NCBI GenBank assembly: GCA_030681515.1
Contig: JAUXSE010000056.1
Span: 186,001-250,000, forward strand
Length of the DNA: 64,000 nt
Source: Geothrix sp.
GTDB taxonomy: Bacteria; Acidobacteriota; Holophagae; Holophagales; Holophagaceae
Reading direction: 5' to 3'
Shown: positions 39,885-50,231 of the stretch, piece by piece
How the letters are laid out: each line of letters starts with the position of its first letter
How positions within the stretch are numbered: the first letter of the stretch is position 1
The notes under the pieces: generated by a model
The model's database searches: none
Told to the model about the DNA's origin: nothing
What the model saw: only the letters and a program-made list of their open reading frames with translations
Translations under genes and position numbers: made by a program

Positions 39885-40289
39885 TCACCGCCCCGCCAGC
39901 ACCCGCACCAGATGCGCCTTCACGTCGGCCATCCGTTCGGGCAACACCGCCACGAAAACCGTGTCGTCGCCGGCGAGGGTGCCCATCTGGCCGGGGACGG
40001 GGTCGGCGTCCAGGCTCAGCCCCAGGGCCTGAGCGAAGCCAGGGGCCGTGCGCAGCACCAGCAGGTTGGGTGGGACTTCGCGGAGGGTCACCTCCGGCAG
40101 GTGCTGGGCGTTGGGCTCGACCCGCCGGTAGCGCCCCTGCACCTTCTGGATGCCCAGGCGCTTCAGCCGCCGGGACAGGGTGGATTGGGTCAGCTCATGG
40201 CCCTGGGCCGCGAGGCGGGCCAGCAGGTCGCCCTGATCGGTGATGGGGGAGCCCTCCAGCACTTGGAGGATGAGGGTATCCAGGTCCAT
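39885..40289 (-). CDS. argR: Arginine repressor ArgR
   Basis: 134 residues. The N-terminal winged helix-turn-helix (about 1-70) has ITDQGDLLARLAAQGHELTQSTLSRRLKRLGIQKV, where ELTQSTLSRRLK matches the family VTQATVSRDIK. The C-terminal domain (about 80-134) ends with GTLAGDDTVFVAVLPERMADVKAHL, the arginine-binding and hexamerisation part (GTLAGDDT). It should repress arg genes when arginine is plentiful. ATG 40289 has no Shine-Dalgarno site and lies at the expected transcription start, so the message may be leaderless. Divergent from argD. Confidence 0.88.
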   Translation of the reverse strand: MDLDTLILQVLEGSPITDQGDLLARLAAQGHELTQSTLSRRLKRLGIQKVQGRYRRVEPNAQHLPEVTLREVPPNLLVLRTAPGFAQALGLSLDADPVPGQMGTLAGDDTVFVAVLPERMADVKAHLVRVLAGR

Positions 40290-40295
40290 GCAGGG

Positions 40296-40324
40296 ATGAT
40301 GCATGACTTTGCATAAACTATCAA
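40296..40324 (-). promoter_or_regulatory. argR promoter with overlapping ARG-box-like palindrome
   Basis: On the minus strand TTGATA (40319-40324) and CATCAT (40296-40301) are 17 bp apart. The -10 ends 7 bp before the argR ATG. The sequence ATGCATGACTTTGCATA (40299-40315) has inverted TGCAT half-sites and covers the spacer, as expected for autorepression. TGCAT-type ARG boxes are known from actinobacteria. Confidence 0.55.
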
Positions 40325-40366
40325 GTCCAGCTTTTGAAAAAATACTTAAACTACAGAAATTTATGA

Positions 40367-40398
40367 TTGAATTCTTCGATTTGATGCGCATAATATGC
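40367..40398 (+). promoter_or_regulatory. argD promoter with palindrome on the -10 element
   Basis: TTGAAT (40367-40372) and CATAAT (40389-40394) are separated by 16 bp. The palindrome GCATA-A-TATGC (40388-40398) sits exactly over the -10, so bound ArgR would block polymerase. It fits repression of the arg operon. Confidence 0.55.
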
Positions 40399-40429
40399 AA
40401 TCTGCCGCTTGGTTATGCGAAATCCATGC

Positions 40430-40452: not shown

Positions 40453-41601
40453 ATGGTCACCGCCGATCCCACCCCCGCCCTGCTCCCCACCTACGCCCCC
40501 TATCCCTTTCCGCTGGTGCGGGGCGAGGGCGACCGGGTCTTCGACGACCGCGGCCAGGCCTGGTGGGACTTCTACGGCGGCCACTGCGTGTGCGCCACGG
40601 GCCACTGCCACCCCACCGTCGTGCAGGCCGTGGCGGCCCAGGCGGCCTCCCTGCTCTTCTATTCCGCCGCCGCCGCCCTGCCCGTGCGGGACCAGGCCGC
40701 CGCGCGGATCACGGCCTTCGCGGGCATGGATTCGGTCTTCTTCTGCAACAGCGGCGCCGAGGCCAACGAGAACGCCCTGAAGGTGGCCCTGCTCCTCACG
40801 GGCCGGAAGAAGCTGGCGGCCTTCGCGGGCGGCTGGCACGGACGCACGCTGCTGGCGCTGTCCGTGACCGATGATCCGAAGATCACGGAGCCCTTCGCCG
40901 ATCAGCTCGTGCCCACGCTGCGGCTGCCCTTCGGGGATCTCGCGGCCCTCGCCGCGGCGGATTTCTCGGAGATCGCGGGCGTCATCCTCGAACCCATCCA
41001 GAGCATGGCCGGCATCAAGACGGCTCCCCGCGCGTGGTTCCAGGCCCTGCGCGCCAAATGCGATGCCTCGGGGACCCTGCTGATCCTTGATGAGATCCAG
41101 ACGGGCATGGGACGCCTGGGAACCCCCTTCGCCGCCCAGTTCTATGGCGTCCGGCCCGATCTGATCACCTCCGCCAAGGGTCTGGCCTCGGGCGTACCCA
41201 TGGGGGCGCTGCTCATGACCGCAGCGGTGGCGGCGAAGCTCCAGGGCGGCGACCTGGGCAGCACCTTCGGGGGCGGACCGCTGGCCTGCGCCGCCCTGCT
41301 GGCCACGGTGGATGTCATCGAGTCCGAGGGCCTGATGGCGAACGCCAGCGCGGCTGCTGCACGGCTGCGAGAGGAACTCGCCGGGTCCGTGGTGACCGAA
41401 GTCCTCGGAGAGGGCCTGCTGCTGGGCCTCCGCAGCCCCCACGCGGCCGCCCTCAAGAAGCACCTGCTGGCCCGGAACCTCCTCGTGGGCGGTTCCAGCG
41501 ATCCCACGGTGTTGCGCCTCATGCCGCCCCTCAATGTCAGCGGCGAAGCCCTCATCGCCCTCATCATCGCCATCCATGCCTTCATGCCGGAGCAGAAATG
41601 A
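40453..41601 (+). CDS. argD: Acetylornithine aminotransferase
   Basis: 382 residues, class-III aminotransferase. It converts N-acetylglutamate semialdehyde to N-acetylornithine with glutamate as amino donor. Seen: FFCNSGAEANENALK, LILDEIQTGMGR and the PLP lysine Lys242 in ITSAKGLASGVPMG. ATG 40453 is preceded by AGGA; upstream in-frame ATGs lie in the operator region. First gene of the arg operon, overlapping the carbamoyltransferase by 4 nt. It may also serve lysine synthesis, as ArgD often does. Confidence 0.92.
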   Translation: MVTADPTPALLPTYAPYPFPLVRGEGDRVFDDRGQAWWDFYGGHCVCATGHCHPTVVQAVAAQAASLLFYSAAAALPVRDQAAARITAFAGMDSVFFCNSGAEANENALKVALLLTGRKKLAAFAGGWHGRTLLALSVTDDPKITEPFADQLVPTLRLPFGDLAALAAADFSEIAGVILEPIQSMAGIKTAPRAWFQALRAKCDASGTLLILDEIQTGMGRLGTPFAAQFYGVRPDLITSAKGLASGVPMGALLMTAAVAAKLQGGDLGSTFGGGPLACAALLATVDVIESEGLMANASAAAARLREELAGSVVTEVLGEGLLLGLRSPHAAALKKHLLARNLLVGGSSDPTVLRLMPPLNVSGEALIALIIAIHAFMPEQK

Positions 41602-42590
41602 AGCACTTCACCCGCATTTCCGACCTGGGCCCGGACGGGGTCCAGCGGATCCTTGGAGTCGCCGCGAACTGGAAGCAGAACCCGCCCGGCGCCCTCTTCG
41701 CCCACCGCATCCTGGGGATGGTGTTCTTCAATCCCAGCCTGCGCACGCGGGCCAGCTTCGAGGCGGCCATGCTGCGCCACGGCGGCCACGCCATCGTGCT
41801 GGAAGTGGGCGCGGGCACCTGGAAGCTGGAGGACCGCGACGGCGCCGTCATGAACGGCGACCGGGCCGAACATGTGCGCGAGGGCGTGCCCGTGCTGGGC
41901 CGCTACGTGGACCTGCTGGCCGTGCGCACCTTCAGCGGCGGCGAAGGTGACGCGGTGGACGAGACCGATCCCGTCATCAACGCCTTCCGGCGCTTCTCCA
42001 CCGTGCCCGTCCTCAGCATGGAAAGCGCCCGGGAGCATCCCCACCAGGGCCTCGCCGATCTGCTCACCATCCAGGAGGCCCACGGCAGCACGAAGGTGCC
42101 CGTCACCCTCACCTGGGCGCCCCACATCAAGCCCCTACCCAAGGCCGTGCCCAATTCCTTCCTGCTCACCGCCGCCGCCTGCGGCGCGGAGATCCGGGTG
42201 GCTCATCCCAGGGGCTACGAACTGGCGCCGGAAGTCCGCGCCGAGGCCGAAGCCTACGCCGCCGCCACGGGCGGAACGATCATCTACACGAACGATCAGG
42301 ACGCCGCCCTGGAGGGCAGCGCCGCAGTCTATGCCAAGGCCTGGGGTCCATCTACCACCTCGGGAATCGAGGCCGCGCCCATGGCCGGCCTCGGCGCCTG
42401 GATGCCCACCGCCGCCCACATGCAGAAGGCCGCGAAGGAGGCCATCTTCACCCACTGCCTGCCCGTGCGCCGGAACCTCGAGGTCCACGACAGCGTCCTC
42501 GATGGCCCCTGGAGCCGCGTGGTGGACGAGGCCGAGAACCGCTTCCACGTGCAGCGGGCCACGCTTCACGCCCTGCTGTCGCAGGGCTGA
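41598..42590 (+). CDS. argF': N-acetylornithine carbamoyltransferase (AOTCase type)
   Basis: 330 residues. The carbamoyl-phosphate site SLRTR (residues 47-51) is present. Family-specific segments are those of acetylornithine, not ornithine, transcarbamylases: MNGDRAEHVREGVPVLGRYVDL, LTWAPHIKPLPKAVPNS and HCLPVRRNLEVHDSVLDG. A Glu (Glu78, in TWKLEDRDG) stands where the acetyl-specific enzyme has Glu and succinyl-specific ones have Pro. It should make N-acetylcitrulline. This implies that deacetylation follows carbamoylation, as in Xanthomonas. Confidence 0.85.
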   Translation: MKHFTRISDLGPDGVQRILGVAANWKQNPPGALFAHRILGMVFFNPSLRTRASFEAAMLRHGGHAIVLEVGAGTWKLEDRDGAVMNGDRAEHVREGVPVLGRYVDLLAVRTFSGGEGDAVDETDPVINAFRRFSTVPVLSMESAREHPHQGLADLLTIQEAHGSTKVPVTLTWAPHIKPLPKAVPNSFLLTAAACGAEIRVAHPRGYELAPEVRAEAEAYAAATGGTIIYTNDQDAALEGSAAVYAKAWGPSTTSGIEAAPMAGLGAWMPTAAHMQKAAKEAIFTHCLPVRRNLEVHDSVLDGPWSRVVDEAENRFHVQRATLHALLSQG

Positions 42591-42741: not shown

Positions 42742-43650
42742 ATGCCGCTTTCCCCGAACCCCTATGCCGCCCTCAAGGAAGCCTCGCAGTACGTCCGCCT
42801 GTTCCGCGGCAAGACCTTCGTGGTGAAGGTGGGCGGCGAGGTGCTGACGGAACCGAAAATCCGCCGAGCCCTGTGCGAACAGCTCGCCCTGCTCTGGTCC
42901 TTTTCCATCCGCGTGGTGGTGGTGCATGGCGGCGGCGCCGAGCTGGACGCCGCCTGCGAGGCCATGCGCATCCCCGTGCAGAAAGTCGCCGGGCGGCGCG
43001 TGACCAGTCCCGCGGTGCTGGATGCCGCCAAGATGGTCTTCGCGGGCCAGGTCCACATGGACCTGCTGGCCGGGCTGCAGGCCGCGGGCGTGCCCGCCGT
43101 GGGCCTCACGGGGCTGGACGCGGGGCTGGTGAAGGCCCACCAGCGCCCCCCCATGGCCGTGGTGCCGGACGGCGCCACGGAACCCCAGCTGGTGGATTTC
43201 GGCCTGGTGGGCGATATTGACGCCGTGGATCCCCACATTCTCCGCCACCTGCTGGAGGGTGGCTTCGTGCCCGTGGTGGCGCCCCTGTCCGGCGGCGCGG
43301 ACGGCGCCATCTACAACACCAACGCCGATACCATCGCCGCCAGCCTGGCCTCGGCCCTGGGCGCGGAAAAGCTGTTCTTCCTGTTGTCCGTGCCGGGCCT
43401 GCTGAAGGACCTCACGAAGGCCTCCTCGCTGATCCCCCACGCCACGCTTGAGGAGCTCGCCACCTTCGAGGCCAAGGGCGTCATCAACGGCGGCATGCGG
43501 CCCAAGGTGGCGGCGGTGAAGGCCGCGATCCAGGGCGGCGTGCCCAGCGTCCACCTGGTGAGCGGCCTCGCGCCGGATGCCCTGCTGGCCGAGATCTTCA
43601 CCAACGAAGGCAGCGGAACCATGATCGTGGCCGGGACAGGTGCCGCATGA
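42742..43650 (+). CDS. argB: Acetylglutamate kinase
   Basis: 302 residues, amino-acid kinase fold. It phosphorylates N-acetylglutamate. Motifs: VVKVGGEVL (residues about 29-37), VVVVHGGGAELD, the GRRVTSPAVLDAAKMVFAG segment and VINGGMRPKVAAVKAAI. A helix before the kinase core (ALKEASQYVRLFRGKT) resembles that of arginine-inhibited kinases. There is no acetyltransferase domain, unlike the bifunctional Xanthomonas enzyme, so acetylglutamate must come from elsewhere. GAGG precedes the start. Confidence 0.93.
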   Translation: MPLSPNPYAALKEASQYVRLFRGKTFVVKVGGEVLTEPKIRRALCEQLALLWSFSIRVVVVHGGGAELDAACEAMRIPVQKVAGRRVTSPAVLDAAKMVFAGQVHMDLLAGLQAAGVPAVGLTGLDAGLVKAHQRPPMAVVPDGATEPQLVDFGLVGDIDAVDPHILRHLLEGGFVPVVAPLSGGADGAIYNTNADTIAASLASALGAEKLFFLLSVPGLLKDLTKASSLIPHATLEELATFEAKGVINGGMRPKVAAVKAAIQGGVPSVHLVSGLAPDALLAEIFTNEGSGTMIVAGTGAA

Positions 43651-43736: not shown

Positions 43737-43759
43737 TCTGTCTTGGAAGGGGCCCAGCC

Positions 43760-44827
43760 ATGAGCCCCGAGGAACTCATCACCCTGCTGGTCGGCACACC
43801 GAGCGTGTCCGGCGAGGAGGGCCCCCTGGCGGACCTGGTGCAGGATCTCCTGTCCACCCAGGGCTTCGAGGTCCAGCGCCAGGGAAACAACCTCTGGTGC
43901 GCCTTCGGGAAGAAGGGCGGGCCGCGGCTGCTGCTCAATTCCCACCTCGATACCGTGCCTCCCTGCGCGGGCTGGGAGGGCGACCCTTTCACGCCCCTCT
44001 GGCAGGGTTCGCGGCTCCAGGGCCTGGGCGCCAACGATGCCAAGGGCTGCGTGGCGGCCATCCTGCTCGCCGCCTTTGATCTCTCGAAGCAGAACCTCGA
44101 CGGCGAGGTGGTCGTGGCCCTCACGGCAGAGGAGGAAACGGGTGGCCAGGGCATCGCCACCATCCTGGATCAGCTCGGCCCCCTGGATGGCGCCGTGGTG
44201 GGCGAACCCACGGGCCTGCGCGTCTGCGCCGCCCAGCGGGGCCTGCTGGCGCTGAAATGCACCGCCCGGGGCCAGAGCGGCCATGTGGCCCACGCCCAGA
44301 TGCTGGGCACCGAGAACGCCATCCACAAAGCTGGCCGGGACATCACCCGCATCGCCGCCATGGACTTCCCCGCCCACCCCCTGCTGGGCTCCCAGAAGGC
44401 CCAGGTCACCCAGATCCAGGGCGGCCTGAGGCGCAACCAGGTGCCCGATGCCTGCGAGTTCTTCGTGGATCTCCGCACCGGTCCCGACCAGGATCACGAC
44501 GCCCTCGCGGCCGACTTCCAGCGGCGGCTGGAAAGCGAGGTCGCCATCCACTCCAAGCGCTACCTGCCCAAGGGCACGGATCCTTCCCATCCCATCGTCC
44601 GCGCCGCCCTCCAGGCCGCGGGCAAGGCCGGCCCCGTGGGTTCCGGAACCACGTCGGATTGGGCCTTCCTGGGCGATATCCCGGCGGTGAAGGCCGGCCC
44701 CGGCGACACCTTCCGCAGCCACGCGCCCAACGAATACCTCACCCTTCCCGAACTGGAAGCGGGAGTAGCCTTCTACGCCAACCTTGTGACAACGTTTTTC
44801 AAGATGCAGGTGCCCCATGAGGGTTGA
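43760..44827 (+). CDS. argE': M20-family deacetylase, probable acetylcitrulline deacetylase
   Basis: 355 residues, ArgE/DapE-type zinc amidohydrolase. Metal ligands appear in LLLNSHLDTVPP (His), LGANDAKGC (Asp), TAEEETGG (Glu pair) and VVGEPTG. The dimerisation domain is near residues 165-270. Because the carbamoyltransferase beside it is of the acetylornithine type, the most likely substrate is N-acetylcitrulline; acetylornithine or a lysine-pathway acyl intermediate are alternatives. ATG 43760 follows GGAAGGGG. Confidence 0.82.
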   Translation: MSPEELITLLVGTPSVSGEEGPLADLVQDLLSTQGFEVQRQGNNLWCAFGKKGGPRLLLNSHLDTVPPCAGWEGDPFTPLWQGSRLQGLGANDAKGCVAAILLAAFDLSKQNLDGEVVVALTAEEETGGQGIATILDQLGPLDGAVVGEPTGLRVCAAQRGLLALKCTARGQSGHVAHAQMLGTENAIHKAGRDITRIAAMDFPAHPLLGSQKAQVTQIQGGLRRNQVPDACEFFVDLRTGPDQDHDALAADFQRRLESEVAIHSKRYLPKGTDPSHPIVRAALQAAGKAGPVGSGTTSDWAFLGDIPAVKAGPGDTFRSHAPNEYLTLPELEAGVAFYANLVTTFFKMQVPHEG

Positions 44828-45097: not shown

Positions 45098-46459
45098 ATG
45101 ATCGAACCCATGCACGAACGGCTCTGGGCCAAGGACCTGCCCCTGGACGCGGCCATCCACCGCTTCACCGTGGGCGAGGATCCGGATACGGACCTGACCC
45201 TGCTGCCCTGGGATGCCCTGGGCAGCGCCGCCCACGCGAAGATGCTCGCCGCCACGGGCCTGCTCGATCCCTCCGATGCCACGGCCCTGATCCGCGGGCT
45301 GCAGCGCATCGCGAACCTGGCCCGGCAGAATGCCTTCCCCATTCCGCCCCACCTGGAGGACGGTCACACGGCCATCGAGGCGGATCTCACGCGCACCCTG
45401 GGCCCCGTCGGCGGGCGCATCCACCTGGGCCGTTCCCGCAACGATCAGGTGATCCTCGCCCTGCGCCTCTACCTGCGGGACGCGCTCCTGCGCCTGGGCC
45501 TGCGGGTGGCGGATCTGGCCGAGGGCTTCCTGGCCTTCGCCCGCGCCCACCAGGACGCGCCGCTGCCGGGCTACACGCACCTGCGCCGGGCCATGCCCAG
45601 CACCTTCGGCCTATGGGCGGCCGCCTTCGCCGAGGGCCTGCTGGAGGAGCTCGAAGCCCTGCAGGGGGTCTACGGCCGCCTGGATCGCTGCCCGCTGGGA
45701 TCCGCCGCGGGCTTCGGCGTGCCCCTGCCCATTGATCGCGGACTCACCGCGAAGCTGCTCGGCTTTTCGAAGGTCCAGCGCAGCCCCGTGGATGTGCAGA
45801 ACAGCCGGGGCCGCCATGAAACCGCCGTCCTCCAGTGGGCCGCCTCCGCGGGTGGCGTGCTGGAGAAATTCCTGTGGGATGTCTCCCTCTACACCACGGA
45901 AGAGTTCGGCTTTCTCGGACTGCCGGACGCCTTCACCACCGGTTCGAGCATCATGCCCCAGAAGAAGAACCCGGATGTGGTGGAGCTGGCCCGGGGCCGC
46001 TGCCGGGAGCTGCGGGGCGCCGCGGGCCTCGTCGAGCACATCGCCACGGGCCTGCCCTCCAGCTACCACCGGGATCTGCAGCTGCTGAAGAAGCCCCTCA
46101 TCGCCGCCCTGCGCAGCGCCGATGATCTCTTCGCCGTGCTGAAGCCCCTGCTGCCGGCCCTTCAGGTGCAGGCCGAAGCCGCCGCGGCGGCCGCCAGCGA
46201 TGACCTCTACGCCGCCCACCAGGCCTATGTCTACGTGCGGTCGGGCCTGCCCTTCCGCGAGGCCTACCGGAAGGTCGCCCAGGAGATCCAGGACGGCACC
46301 TTCGCCCCGGATCGCGCCGCCCTCACCGCCACCCACCTCGGCGGCGCCGGGAATCTGGGCCTGGACGACCTTGCTTCCGAACTCGCGGACGCTCGCACCT
46401 GGATCGAAACCAAGCGGGACATCCACGCCCAGGCGGAGGCGGCGTTGTGGGCGAACTGA
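45098..46459 (+). CDS. argH: Argininosuccinate lyase
   Basis: 453 residues. It cleaves argininosuccinate to arginine and fumarate. Family signature GSSIMPQKKNPDVVELARGR (fumarase/aspartase superfamily), with GRSRNDQV, SPVDVQNSRGRHE and YTHLRRAMPSTFG also seen. ATG 45098 has GAGG 8 nt upstream. Last enzyme of the pathway, encoded before argG. Confidence 0.95.
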   Translation: MIEPMHERLWAKDLPLDAAIHRFTVGEDPDTDLTLLPWDALGSAAHAKMLAATGLLDPSDATALIRGLQRIANLARQNAFPIPPHLEDGHTAIEADLTRTLGPVGGRIHLGRSRNDQVILALRLYLRDALLRLGLRVADLAEGFLAFARAHQDAPLPGYTHLRRAMPSTFGLWAAAFAEGLLEELEALQGVYGRLDRCPLGSAAGFGVPLPIDRGLTAKLLGFSKVQRSPVDVQNSRGRHETAVLQWAASAGGVLEKFLWDVSLYTTEEFGFLGLPDAFTTGSSIMPQKKNPDVVELARGRCRELRGAAGLVEHIATGLPSSYHRDLQLLKKPLIAALRSADDLFAVLKPLLPALQVQAEAAAAAASDDLYAAHQAYVYVRSGLPFREAYRKVAQEIQDGTFAPDRAALTATHLGGAGNLGLDDLASELADARTWIETKRDIHAQAEAALWAN

Positions 46460-46771: not shown

Positions 46772-46862
46772 CTAAATGCAGTTCTTCCTTTTCATATCAA
46801 CCCAGGCGAGGACACGCCGGCATGGGATCTCGGTGGTTCAGCATTTTCTTGAAAGGCCTCCC

Positions 46863-48050
46863 ATGAGCCAGCTCGCCGTCCTCGCCTTTTCCGGCGGCCT
46901 CGACACCTCCTTCTGTGTGCTCTACCTCAGGGAGCAGGGCTACGAGGTGGCCACGGTCACGGTGAACACCGGCGGCTTCTCGCCGGAGGAACTGGCCCGC
47001 ATCGAGACCGCCTCGCCGAAGCTGGGCGCCCTCAGCCACACCACGGTGGATGCCCGGGCCGGGCTCTTCGAGGGCTACCTGCGCTACCTGGTCTACGGCA
47101 ACGTGCTGCGCGGCCAGCTGTACCCGCTGTCCGTATCCGCCGAACGGGTCTGCCAGGCCCGGGCCGTGGCGGAACTGGCCAAGGACATGAAGGCCGATGC
47201 CATCGCCCACGGCTCCACCGGCGCGGGCAACGATCAGGTGCGCTTCGACGTGGCCTTCCGGGCCCTGGCGCCGGAGCTGGCGATCCTCACGCCCATCCGC
47301 GATCTGGGCCTGTCCCGGGCCGAGGAGCTGGCCTACTGCGCCCAGCGCGGCGTGGTGTTCCCCGAGAAGACCCAGGACTACTCCATCAACGAAGGCATGT
47401 GGGGCACCAGCGTCGGGGGGCGCGAAACCCTGGATGCCTGGGCCACCCTGCCCGAAGCCGTCTTCCCGGGCGGCGTCATCGGCGGGGTGGCCCCGAGGAC
47501 GGTGGTGATCAGCTTCGATGCGGGCGTGCCCGTGGCGTTGGACGGCAATGCCATGGATCCCGTCACCCTCATCGCCCGGCTCAACGACCTCGGCCGCCCC
47601 TACGGCATCGGGCGGGGCGTGCACCTGGGCGATACCATCCTGGGCATCAAGGGCCGGGTCGGCTTCGAAGCCCCCGCGGCGCACCTGCTCATCGGCGCCC
47701 ACCGGGAGCTGGAGAAGCTCGTCCTCAGCGGCAAGCAGCTCTTCTGGAAGGAGTCCCTGGGCAACCTCTATGGCAGCCTGCTCCACGAGGGCCATTTCTT
47801 CGATCCCCTGGCCCGCGATCTCGAAGCCTTCCTGGAATCCAGCCAGGACCGCGTCCGGGGCGAGGTGCGCCTCACCCTGCACCCGAGGGCCTTCGTGGTG
47901 GAGGGCGTGCAATCCCCCTACTCCCTGATGGACCCCCGCATCGCCACCTACGGCGAAGCCAATAACCTCTGGACCGGCGCCGAAGCCGCGGGCTTCGCGA
48001 AGATCTTCGGCGTCCAGCAAACCCTGACTCTCAAAGCCAAGTCCAACTGA
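46863..48050 (+). CDS. argG: Argininosuccinate synthase
   Basis: 395 residues. It ligates citrulline and aspartate using ATP. N-terminal PP-loop LAFSGGLDTSFCVLYLREQGYEV, then HGSTGAGNDQVRFD, LGLSRAEELAY and YSINEGMWGTSVGG. ATG 46863 gives the family start; the longer frame to 46776 runs into the repeat element. Confidence 0.95.
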   Translation: MSQLAVLAFSGGLDTSFCVLYLREQGYEVATVTVNTGGFSPEELARIETASPKLGALSHTTVDARAGLFEGYLRYLVYGNVLRGQLYPLSVSAERVCQARAVAELAKDMKADAIAHGSTGAGNDQVRFDVAFRALAPELAILTPIRDLGLSRAEELAYCAQRGVVFPEKTQDYSINEGMWGTSVGGRETLDAWATLPEAVFPGGVIGGVAPRTVVISFDAGVPVALDGNAMDPVTLIARLNDLGRPYGIGRGVHLGDTILGIKGRVGFEAPAAHLLIGAHRELEKLVLSGKQLFWKESLGNLYGSLLHEGHFFDPLARDLEAFLESSQDRVRGEVRLTLHPRAFVVEGVQSPYSLMDPRIATYGEANNLWTGAEAAGFAKIFGVQQTLTLKAKSN

Positions 48051-48066: not shown

Positions 48067-49119
48067 ATGCGCATCCACGTCGACAAGCTCGCCTCGGTCA
48101 CCCGCAACCTGCGGCTGGGCCGCACGCTCACCCTCTCCAGCGAGATCCTGCTGGAAGAAGGCTCCGTCATCGCCTGCCGGGTGAAGGGCGAGAAGACCTC
48201 GTACAACCAGCTGGAGGATCCCCACGGCCGCATGAGCACGCTGCACGACGGGGACATCCTCGTGGGCGCCCTGGGCCACCGCAACGCCCTCCAGGGCTAC
48301 GAGGGCGTCATGCCCAAGGCCCTGAAGCCCGGCGACACGGTGAACCTGCTGAACATGGGCGGCGTCCTGGGCCAGTGCCTCTCCCACAATCCCGATGTGG
48401 GCAAGCCCTTCGAGTTGGAGGTGCTGGGCCAGGTGCTGGTCTTCCCCGAATTCCAGTCCCGAGCGGGCCAGCCCGCCCACATCCGCATGGGAGCCCTCAA
48501 GGGCACGGGCCTCGCGCCCCACTGCCCCGTGGTCTACGTGGCGGGCACCTGCATGAACGCGGGCAAGACCGCCGCCGCCTGCGCCGCCATCCGCCAACTC
48601 AGCCGCGCGGGCTACCGGGTGGGTGCCTGCAAGCTCACGGGCGTGTCGCTCATGCGCGATGCCCTCGCGATGAAGGATTACGGGGCTGAATTGGCCCTGG
48701 ATTTCACGGACGCGGGCATCGTCTGCACGGACGCGGGCAGCGCCGCCGGCGTGTCGCGCATCATCTTCTCGGAGCTGGCGGCCCACGGGGTGGACATCAT
48801 CGTGGCCGAGACCGGCGATGGCATCATGGGCGAGTACGGCGTGCAGGCCATCCTGTCAGATCCCGATCTGAAGGCCCTGAGCGGTGCGTTCATCCTCTGC
48901 GCCAACGACCCCGTGGGTGCCGCCGGCGGCGTGGCCAATCTGAAGGCGGTCTATGGCATCCAGCCCGATCTCATCGCGGGGCCCGCCACGGACAACCGCG
49001 TGGGCGAACGCTTCGTGGCCACCCTGGGCCTTCCCGCCCGCAACGCCCGCGCCGACGCCGAAGCCCTCGGCCAGTTCGTGCTGGGCCTCGTTGAACCCAA
49101 GATCGCGGCCAAGGTCTAA
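48067..49119 (+). CDS. P-loop protein of the DUF1611/DgcN-like group inside the arg operon
   Basis: 350 residues, 16 bp after argG with GAGGAA upstream. The N-terminal domain (1-150) is beta-rich. A P-loop GTCMNAGKT lies at 160-168, followed by KLTGVSLMRDALAMKDYGAE, ALDFTDAGIVCTDAG (211-224) and VAETGDGIMGEYGV (246-259). This order resembles DUF1611/DgcN proteins, one of which was reported as a D-glutamate N-acetyltransferase. No argA or argJ is in the window, and argB lacks an acetyltransferase domain, so this could make N-acetylglutamate. That is a hypothesis; the family call itself is by motif order only. Confidence 0.6.
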   Translation: MRIHVDKLASVTRNLRLGRTLTLSSEILLEEGSVIACRVKGEKTSYNQLEDPHGRMSTLHDGDILVGALGHRNALQGYEGVMPKALKPGDTVNLLNMGGVLGQCLSHNPDVGKPFELEVLGQVLVFPEFQSRAGQPAHIRMGALKGTGLAPHCPVVYVAGTCMNAGKTAAACAAIRQLSRAGYRVGACKLTGVSLMRDALAMKDYGAELALDFTDAGIVCTDAGSAAGVSRIIFSELAAHGVDIIVAETGDGIMGEYGVQAILSDPDLKALSGAFILCANDPVGAAGGVANLKAVYGIQPDLIAGPATDNRVGERFVATLGLPARNARADAEALGQFVLGLVEPKIAAKV

Positions 49120-49128
49120 ATGATCGGG

Positions 49129-49207
49129 TCCACAGATTCCACAGATTTCACAGATTCAAAAGCCGGTGTCTGACTTTCAATCTGTGTGAATCTGTGAAAT
49201 CTGTGGA
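49129..49207 (+). repeat. Word-palindrome element, CACAGATT type
   Basis: The left arm (49129-49158) is made of TCCACAGATT, CCACAGATT, TCACAGATTCA; the right arm (49177-49207) is the complement with AATCTGTG words. It fills the gap before argC. Confidence 0.8.
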
Positions 49208-49232
49208 TAGATGTTTTTCTCTGTGAGCCCTT

Positions 49233-50231
49233 ATGAAATCAGTGGATGTCTTGATCCTTGGCGCGTCCGGCTACGGCGGAGGGGAGCTGCTGCGCTGGCT
49301 CTCGACCCATCCGGCGGTGAAGACGCTGCGCGGCACGGCCCGCAGCCACGCGGGCAAGCCCTTTCATGCCCAGCATCCGAACCTGCGGGGGCTGGTGGAA
49401 GGCACCTTCGAGGCCGCGCCCGACTGGACGGCCCTGGCCCAGAGCGAGGCGCCCGTGGTGTTCGCGGCCCTGCCGCATGGTGAGTTCGCGAAGCAGTGGC
49501 CCGACTACCAGGTCGAATGGAGCCGGCTGGGACTCACGGACAAGCTCACCGTCATTGACCTCTCCGCGGACTTCCGCCTGGATCCCGCCTGGATCTACGG
49601 CCTGGTGGACTGGCAGCCCGAGCGCATGCGCGGCGCCAGGCGCATCGCCAACCCCGGCTGCTTCGCCACGGCCCTGCAGCTGGCCCTGCTGCCGCTCGCC
49701 GAATGGAAGCCCGCCTTCGTGGCCGTCACCGCGGCGACAGGCTCCTCGGGCTCCGGGGCCACGCCCTCGGACACCACCCATCATCCCACCCGGGCGAATG
49801 ACTTCCGGGCCTACAAGATGCTCGGCCATCCGCACGAAGCCGAGGTGCTGCGCACCCTGGCCAGCGCCGGCTGGGAGGCGCCCCTCAGTTTCGTGCCCCA
49901 GAGCGCGCCCATGGTGCGCGGGCTCTTCACCACGGCTCAATTCCCGCTGGGCGCGGGAATTGAGGTAGGGGCCCTGCGGGCCCACTACGAAATTTTCTAC
50001 AAGGATCGTTTCTTCGTGCGCATGGTGGACGGCAGCCCCAGGGTGGCTGCCACCACCGGCAGCGCCTTCGCGGATATCGGTGTGGCGGCGCGCCACGGCC
50101 ACGGCGCCGTCATGGTCGCCCTCGATAACCTCGGCAAGGGCATGGCCACCCAGGCCGTGCAGAACCTCAATCTGGCGCTGGGACTGCCGGAGTGGACGGG
50201 GCTGAAGGTGGCCGCAGGCTATCCGGGCTGA
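49233..50231 (+). CDS. argC: N-acetyl-gamma-glutamyl-phosphate reductase
   Basis: 332 residues. It reduces acetylglutamyl phosphate to the semialdehyde with NADPH. The Rossmann GASGYGGGELLRWL, the catalytic cysteine in IANPGCFATALQLALLPL and the ATGSSGSG segment are all present, along with HHPTRANDFRAYKMLGHPHEAE. It is the last gene of the arg cluster, with a weak ribosome-binding site. Confidence 0.95.
   Translation: MKSVDVLILGASGYGGGELLRWLSTHPAVKTLRGTARSHAGKPFHAQHPNLRGLVEGTFEAAPDWTALAQSEAPVVFAALPHGEFAKQWPDYQVEWSRLGLTDKLTVIDLSADFRLDPAWIYGLVDWQPERMRGARRIANPGCFATALQLALLPLAEWKPAFVAVTAATGSSGSGATPSDTTHHPTRANDFRAYKMLGHPHEAEVLRTLASAGWEAPLSFVPQSAPMVRGLFTTAQFPLGAGIEVGALRAHYEIFYKDRFFVRMVDGSPRVAATTGSAFADIGVAARHGHGAVMVALDNLGKGMATQAVQNLNLALGLPEWTGLKVAAGYPG

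Follow-up and report, generated by a model that had tools for sequence, protein, structure and literature searches.

A P-loop protein encoded beside argC as a putative N-succinyl-L-glutamate synthase in bacterial arginine operons

Which enzyme starts arginine synthesis in a Geothrix genome whose arg operon encodes the later steps of the pathway and no recognised enzyme for the first? In the window—the whole 64,000-nt stretch of DNA analysed here—NCBIfam and Pfam assignments gave a divergent argR followed by argD-SOTC-argB-argE-argH-argG-P0001-argC, with SOTC standing for a knotted carbamoyltransferase, argE for an M20-family deacylase and P0001 for the gene in question. This confirms the operon content named in a first-pass annotation made from the sequence alone (ArgB, ArgC, ArgD, a carbamoyltransferase, a deacylase, ArgG and ArgH), as well as its statement that ArgB lacks a fused acetyltransferase, the protein comprising 302 aa with a kinase domain only (Pfam).

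39885–40400, minus strand: argR, arginine repressor, divergent (PF01316 and PF02863 matched above their cut-offs; the ORF as listed probably begins too early)
40453–41601, plus strand: argD, N-acylornithine aminotransferase (PF00202, 286 bits; TIGR00707, 327 bits, below its cut-off of 410; start approximate)
41598–42590, plus strand: knotted carbamoyltransferase with the succinylornithine-type residues A90, P181 and E295 (NF003384, 392 bits vs. cut-off 288; alignment to solved AOTCase)
42742–43650, plus strand: argB, N-acylglutamate kinase without acetyltransferase domain (TIGR00761, 217 bits vs. cut-off 151)
43757–44827, plus strand: M20-family ArgE/DapE-like deacylase, proposed N-acylcitrulline deacylase (PF01546, 91 bits; top NCBIfam models ArgE/DapE, scoring under their cut-offs; start by homology)
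45098–46459, plus strand: argH, argininosuccinate lyase (TIGR00838, 293 bits vs. cut-off 279.5; start approximate)
46863–48050, plus strand: argG, argininosuccinate synthase (TIGR00032, 309 bits vs. cut-off 268; start set by homology, the listed ORF beginning at 46776)
48067–49119, plus strand: P0001, P-loop protein of 350 aa and putative N-succinyl-L-glutamate synthase (ORF with ribosome-binding site, adjoining argC in homologous loci; AlphaFold2 model)
48544–48570, plus strand: Walker A motif GTCMNAGKT of P0001, residues 160–168 (alignment A1)
49233–50231, plus strand: argC, N-acyl-gamma-glutamyl-phosphate reductase (TIGR01850, 280 bits vs. cut-off 233.6)

The P0001 frame runs uninterrupted for 350 codons from its ATG, with GAGGAA immediately 5′, in agreement with the initial description of a P-loop ORF between argG and argC equipped with a ribosome-binding site and GTCMNAGKT. 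Identity amounts to 88–94% within the genus and the protein is kept down to ~32% identity across several families; P0001 is thus not a chance ORF. Within the Walker A motif, G160, M163, G166, K167 and T168 are invariant among the 18 sequences of alignment A1.

The first-pass annotation had noted that the operon encodes neither ArgA nor ArgJ for the first step, and this absence extends to the whole genome (3.2 Mb, 99.5% complete). ArgJ (PF01960) had no match there, and none in P0001 itself; full-length ArgA was likewise missing, the sole TIGR01890 match in the genome being argB; and A7, a profile derived from six GNAT synthases of the same phylum, matched no NAGS-type GNAT in it at E ≤ 1e-10. 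As the TIGR01890 and A7 searches detected such enzymes in sister lineages, they are sensitive enough, and the genome-wide search for argA, argJ and GNAT-type synthases that had been suggested as a check revealed no competing first-step enzyme. TIGR01890 matches in P0001 genomes more generally were rejected as ArgA, the best of them being argB itself (profile positions about 4–290).

Across a sample of 199 Acidobacteriota genomes, P0001 homologues were found in 60, with 49 passing E < 1e-40 and counted as carrying P0001, among them a partial gene in G109. ArgJ occurred in 70 of the 199 and never together with P0001 (Fisher 1e-11, a descriptive value that overstates the evidence since genomes within a clade are related and not independent). 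Restricting the comparison to the 120 genomes with a clear ArgB-like match left 47 with P0001, 63 with ArgJ, none with both and ten with neither, and the 48 of 199 genomes with a GNAT-NAGS shared no member with the P0001 set. The same exclusion was seen in Myxococcota (n = 146; P0001 in 50, ArgJ in 56, both in 0), where a weak match of paralogue strength (G252) was left out of the P0001 count, and none of 36 P0001-bearing Myxococcota and Lysobacterales genomes had ArgJ or an over-cut-off TIGR01890 (ArgA) match. The absence of ArgJ could be a consequence of a succinyl route itself. A diverged GNAT encoded elsewhere may conceivably be the first-step enzyme; in Myxococcota, the NAGS profile weakly matches some proteins over a C-terminal GNAT region.

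Among the ten genomes with neither enzyme, three (G023, G084 and G110) hold a GNAT-NAGS inside the arg cluster, in one (G082) the sequence is cut right at argC, and one (G064) encodes a true acetyl-type carbamoyltransferase. The main counter-evidence to P0001 as first enzyme comes from five genomes (G131, G141, G149, G173 and G181; loci L182 and L177–L180, respectively) that keep argC-argD-SOTC-argB and lack P0001, and in which no ArgJ, GNAT synthase or other recognised first-step enzyme was found. Their carbamoyltransferases are of succinyl type (P/P/E in G131) or near it (T/P/I). With P0001 missing from these clusters, the first step must have, or once have had, another source. A sister species (G189) carries P0001 exactly between argR and argC. 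An extra 181-aa ORF in L177 was inspected as a replacement and discarded, its sequence showing no acyltransferase.

These five clusters, which run without P0001, would also suit an accessory nucleotide-binding protein—a regulator, chaperone or activator of ArgC or ArgB—with an unrecognised acyltransferase encoded elsewhere, as would the related paralogues outside arg clusters and a fold class rich in ATPase and GTPase switches (SRP, MeaB and HypB are among the structure matches). We consider such a role unlikely, however, given that in two phyla P0001 takes the place of ArgJ and GNAT-NAGS in a nearly one-to-one manner, that every other gene of these otherwise complete operons has an assignment, and that P0001 is the sole candidate common to the genomes carrying it.

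Had P0001 homologues never been found with arg genes, a link to arginine synthesis would have been hard to uphold; instead, argC was the neighbour in all 17 divergent Acidobacteriota loci inspected (E < 1e-40). A public scan covering one genome per species (84,980 species) with one peptide pattern yielded 542 relatives, the best 80 of which came from Holophagaceae, Myxococcus/Corallococcus/Hyalangium and Lysobacterales MAGs; among these 80, from three phyla, argC adjoined P0001 in 78 of the 78 loci that extend past the gene. The close public relatives of the window genome are Geothrix/Holophagaceae. In one locus (L047), P0001 and argC overlap by 4 nt, and across relatives the gap between the two genes is either ~0 or >100 nt, a pattern reminiscent of an inserted element. 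The window itself has a long imperfect palindrome in this gap (49128–49209), with AATCTGTGAAATCTGTG on both arms and a predicted hairpin of −42 kcal/mol (z −6.7).

P0001 and a succinyl-type carbamoyltransferase occur together in 41 genomes. Seven further genomes (G024, G050, G104, G140, G148, G156 and G164) carry P0001 without such a carbamoyltransferase, one of them (G156) encoding an ordinary ornithine carbamoyltransferase; P0001 thus tracks the missing first step, not the carbamoyltransferase. The earlier suggestion of a carbamoyl-transfer partner is disfavoured by four families that keep P0001-argC-argD-argB without any knotted carbamoyltransferase. For the same reason, and because its constant neighbour is argC rather than the carbamoyltransferase gene, P0001 is very improbably a BioD-like enzyme handling carbamoyl or carbamate for that step, even though BioD is among its closest matches in sequence (E 0.014) and fold (Z 15.3).

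The carbamoyltransferase also bears on the acyl group. AOTCases carry Glu92, Asn185 and Lys302, and SOTCases A/S/P/V/Q, P and V/I/E at the same positions (Xanthomonas numbering; PMC4581275), the first of which is the one relied on in PMC7311316. With A90, P181 and E295, the window enzyme meets the succinyl signature, as do 73 of 77 carbamoyltransferases encoded beside P0001 homologues, the other four deviating at one position; the acetyl combination Glu/Asn/Lys was found in none of the 77, and the only true acetyl-type enzyme seen (E/N/K) is that of G064, a genome without P0001. The putative product of P0001 is thus probably N-succinyl-L-glutamate and not N-acetyl-glutamate, and the NCBIfam name 'N-acetylornithine carbamoyltransferase' is, judging from these residues, probably wrong for the window enzyme. 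Consequently, the 'acetylglutamate-forming' function first suggested for P0001 was not upheld, and of the proposed 'new kind of N-acetylglutamate synthase' the idea of a non-homologous step-one enzyme is supported by context and exclusion, but the acyl group was probably misjudged.

An N-acetyl-L-glutamate synthase acting at the same step with acetyl-CoA would fit that NCBIfam label as well as DgcN, a protein of similar fold deposited under the title 'N-acetyltransferase DgcN' (7xrj, Z 14.5); the seven P0001 genomes without a succinyl-type carbamoyltransferase, including the one with an ordinary ornithine carbamoyltransferase, accommodate acetyl and succinyl equally. Against the 0/77 acetyl and 73/77 full succinyl signatures, we regard this version as quite unlikely. 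From gene context, the exclusion pattern, the carbamoyltransferase signature and the predicted fold, we infer instead that P0001 likely N-acylates L-glutamate, most likely with a succinyl group, and so starts arginine synthesis.

An AlphaFold2 model of P0001 built with 77 homologues (pLDDT 92.3, pTM 0.90; a single-sequence model with pLDDT 39.6 was discarded) comprises a beta-rich N-terminal part (residues about 1–140) and a P-loop domain (150–349). In VIA-align comparisons, which cover mainly residues 150–349 and in which Z differences of about 1 are ties, the top match was the DUF1611 protein TM0796 (2g0t; Z 17.0, rmsd 2.7, 173 aligned), followed by CTP synthase (Z 16.1), BioD (15.3), a second DUF1611 protein (2obn, 15.2) and DgcN (7xrj; Z 14.5, rmsd 3.3, 178 aligned). 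Given these ties, the predicted fold supports assignment of the P-loop domain to the SIMIBI class and allows DgcN without singling it out. The structural comparison with DgcN proposed in the first-pass annotation therefore yielded a similar predicted P-loop domain, but not a DgcN-specific one.

At the sequence level, PDB searches with P0001 or its profile returned nothing significant, the best profile match being BioD (E 0.014 over 33 residues, not significant), and no GNAT domain was matched in P0001 by Pfam or NCBIfam, its predicted fold being that of a P-loop protein. P0001 scores 14.9 bits against Pfam DUF1611 (PF07755; curated cut-off 25) and its M. xanthus orthologue 20.4 bits, and hhalign aligned P0001 with DUF1611 over only 74 columns around Walker A (probability 26%, E 0.0007). 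The DUF1611 motifs GTDxxxGKR and GTGQTxW are absent, their counterparts in P0001 being GTCMNAGKT and KLTGV. Membership of P0001 in DUF1611 is thus not established: the original 'DUF1611/DgcN-like' holds for the predicted P-loop fold (Z 14.5–17.0), but CTP synthase and BioD score alike and the Pfam and motif tests failed.

In the proposed pathway, P0001 would convert L-glutamate and a succinyl donor to N-succinyl-L-glutamate, which ArgB, ArgC and ArgD would carry on to N-succinylornithine. The knotted SOTCase would then form N-succinylcitrulline, the M20 deacylase would remove the acyl group to give citrulline, and ArgG and ArgH would complete arginine. The working part of P0001 would be its P-loop domain, which is of the kind seen in BioD, CTP synthase and DUF1611, and the beta-rich N-terminal part would contribute to the active site; candidate site residues, invariant in A1, are K167, T168, K189, D198, D215, E248, D251 and D281, perhaps together with the N-terminal invariant residues Y46, E50, R72 and N96.

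By likeness to the acetyltransferase DgcN, succinyl-CoA is the favoured donor. Likeness to BioD and CTP synthase would instead point to succinate plus ATP. These two enzymes make a C–N bond via a phosphorylated intermediate and resemble P0001 in the fold of the P-loop domain (Z 15.3 and 16.1), although only this domain aligns and their operons differ. By that analogy, P0001 might represent a new class of N-succinyl-L-glutamate synthetase in which succinate is activated by ATP as an acyl phosphate on the P-loop, with no CoA thioester involved, a possibility that we consider doubtful. If it were true, Acidobacteriota and myxobacteria would use an ATP-dependent ligase for the committed step of arginine synthesis.

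Operon order is near-identical across three phyla, apart from argD lying elsewhere in Myxococcaceae and argE in Lysobacterales, and phyla are intermixed in the P0001 tree, which together suggest transfer of the whole arg operon between phyla. In Lysobacterales MAG loci (L100, L102, L103, L113, L120 and others), no argE of the window type lies between argB and argH, the operons otherwise being like those of Holophagaceae. The arg-linked P0001 sequences form one side of a single, weakly supported tree branch (66/93). The partial gene counted for G109 (contig C221, locus L019), a Geothrix-type fragment with 92% identity on a short contig in a distant family, is probably bin contamination. No P0001 homologue was found in viral contigs.

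Paralogues without an arg operon alongside include L048–L050, L153–L158 and plasmid genes; ABC transporter, ATP-grasp or M20 genes occur near them, with no consistent partner. One of these (L158) passes Pfam DUF1611 with 30.8 bits. The family comprising L048–L050, L241 and L242 has GTSMDSGKT or a similar motif and adjoins ATP-grasp or ABC transporter genes, and its plasmid members carry a DUF1611 annotation. A plasmid of Priestia megaterium (NZ_CP085446.1) encodes a distant homologue (L243) in an apparent biosynthetic cluster with genes for a carbamoyltransferase, two ATP-grasp ligases, a TPP enzyme, an M20 peptidase and a PEP mutase-like protein; this content is circumstantially compatible with N-acylation followed by deacylation.

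Among known systems, the D-glutamate N-acetyltransferase DgcN (DUF1611, 7xrj) resembles P0001 in predicted P-loop fold, as do 2g0t and 2obn, and DgcN also in glutamate as the (for P0001, proposed) substrate and in N-acylation. In contrast, identity to DUF1611/DgcN is 13–16%, and P0001 resides in arginine operons, where L-glutamate is expected. GNAT synthases (ArgA, S-NAGS, Bacteroides BT3761 and Caldithrix Cabys_1732) are placed at the step proposed here for P0001, yet have an unrelated fold and never co-occur with it in the sampled Acidobacteriota genomes, and ArgJ, the ornithine acetyltransferase by which sister lineages close this gap, is unrelated in sequence. The pathway that includes the Xanthomonas NAGS-kinase fusion (ArgA-B) is likewise linear and uses an ArgE-type deacylase as well as a knotted carbamoyltransferase, whereas the window encodes an ArgB without a synthase domain fused to it and a carbamoyltransferase of succinyl rather than acetyl type.

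In the open-access literature, we found no paper that assigns the P0001 family to arginine synthesis. Holophagaceae except Acidiparvus have been described as lacking N-acetylglutamate synthase (PMC11561045), and M. xanthus, which carries a P0001 orthologue, is listed among organisms without ornithine acetyltransferase (PMC1865377). A succinylated arginine route is known from Bacteroidetes, with step one assigned to BT3761, which is >50% identical to the synthase Cabys_1732 and thought to form N-succinylglutamate (PMC7311316). If our proposal is true, P0001 would supply the missing partner of this route outside Bacteroidetes and correct the automatic 'N-acetylornithine carbamoyltransferase' label in these operons. 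A P-loop enzyme would then be a further unrelated solution to step one beside ArgJ and the GNAT synthases, filling a first-step gap common to myxobacteria and many soil bacteria—organisms that pathway predictors would score as arginine auxotrophs or leave with a gap.
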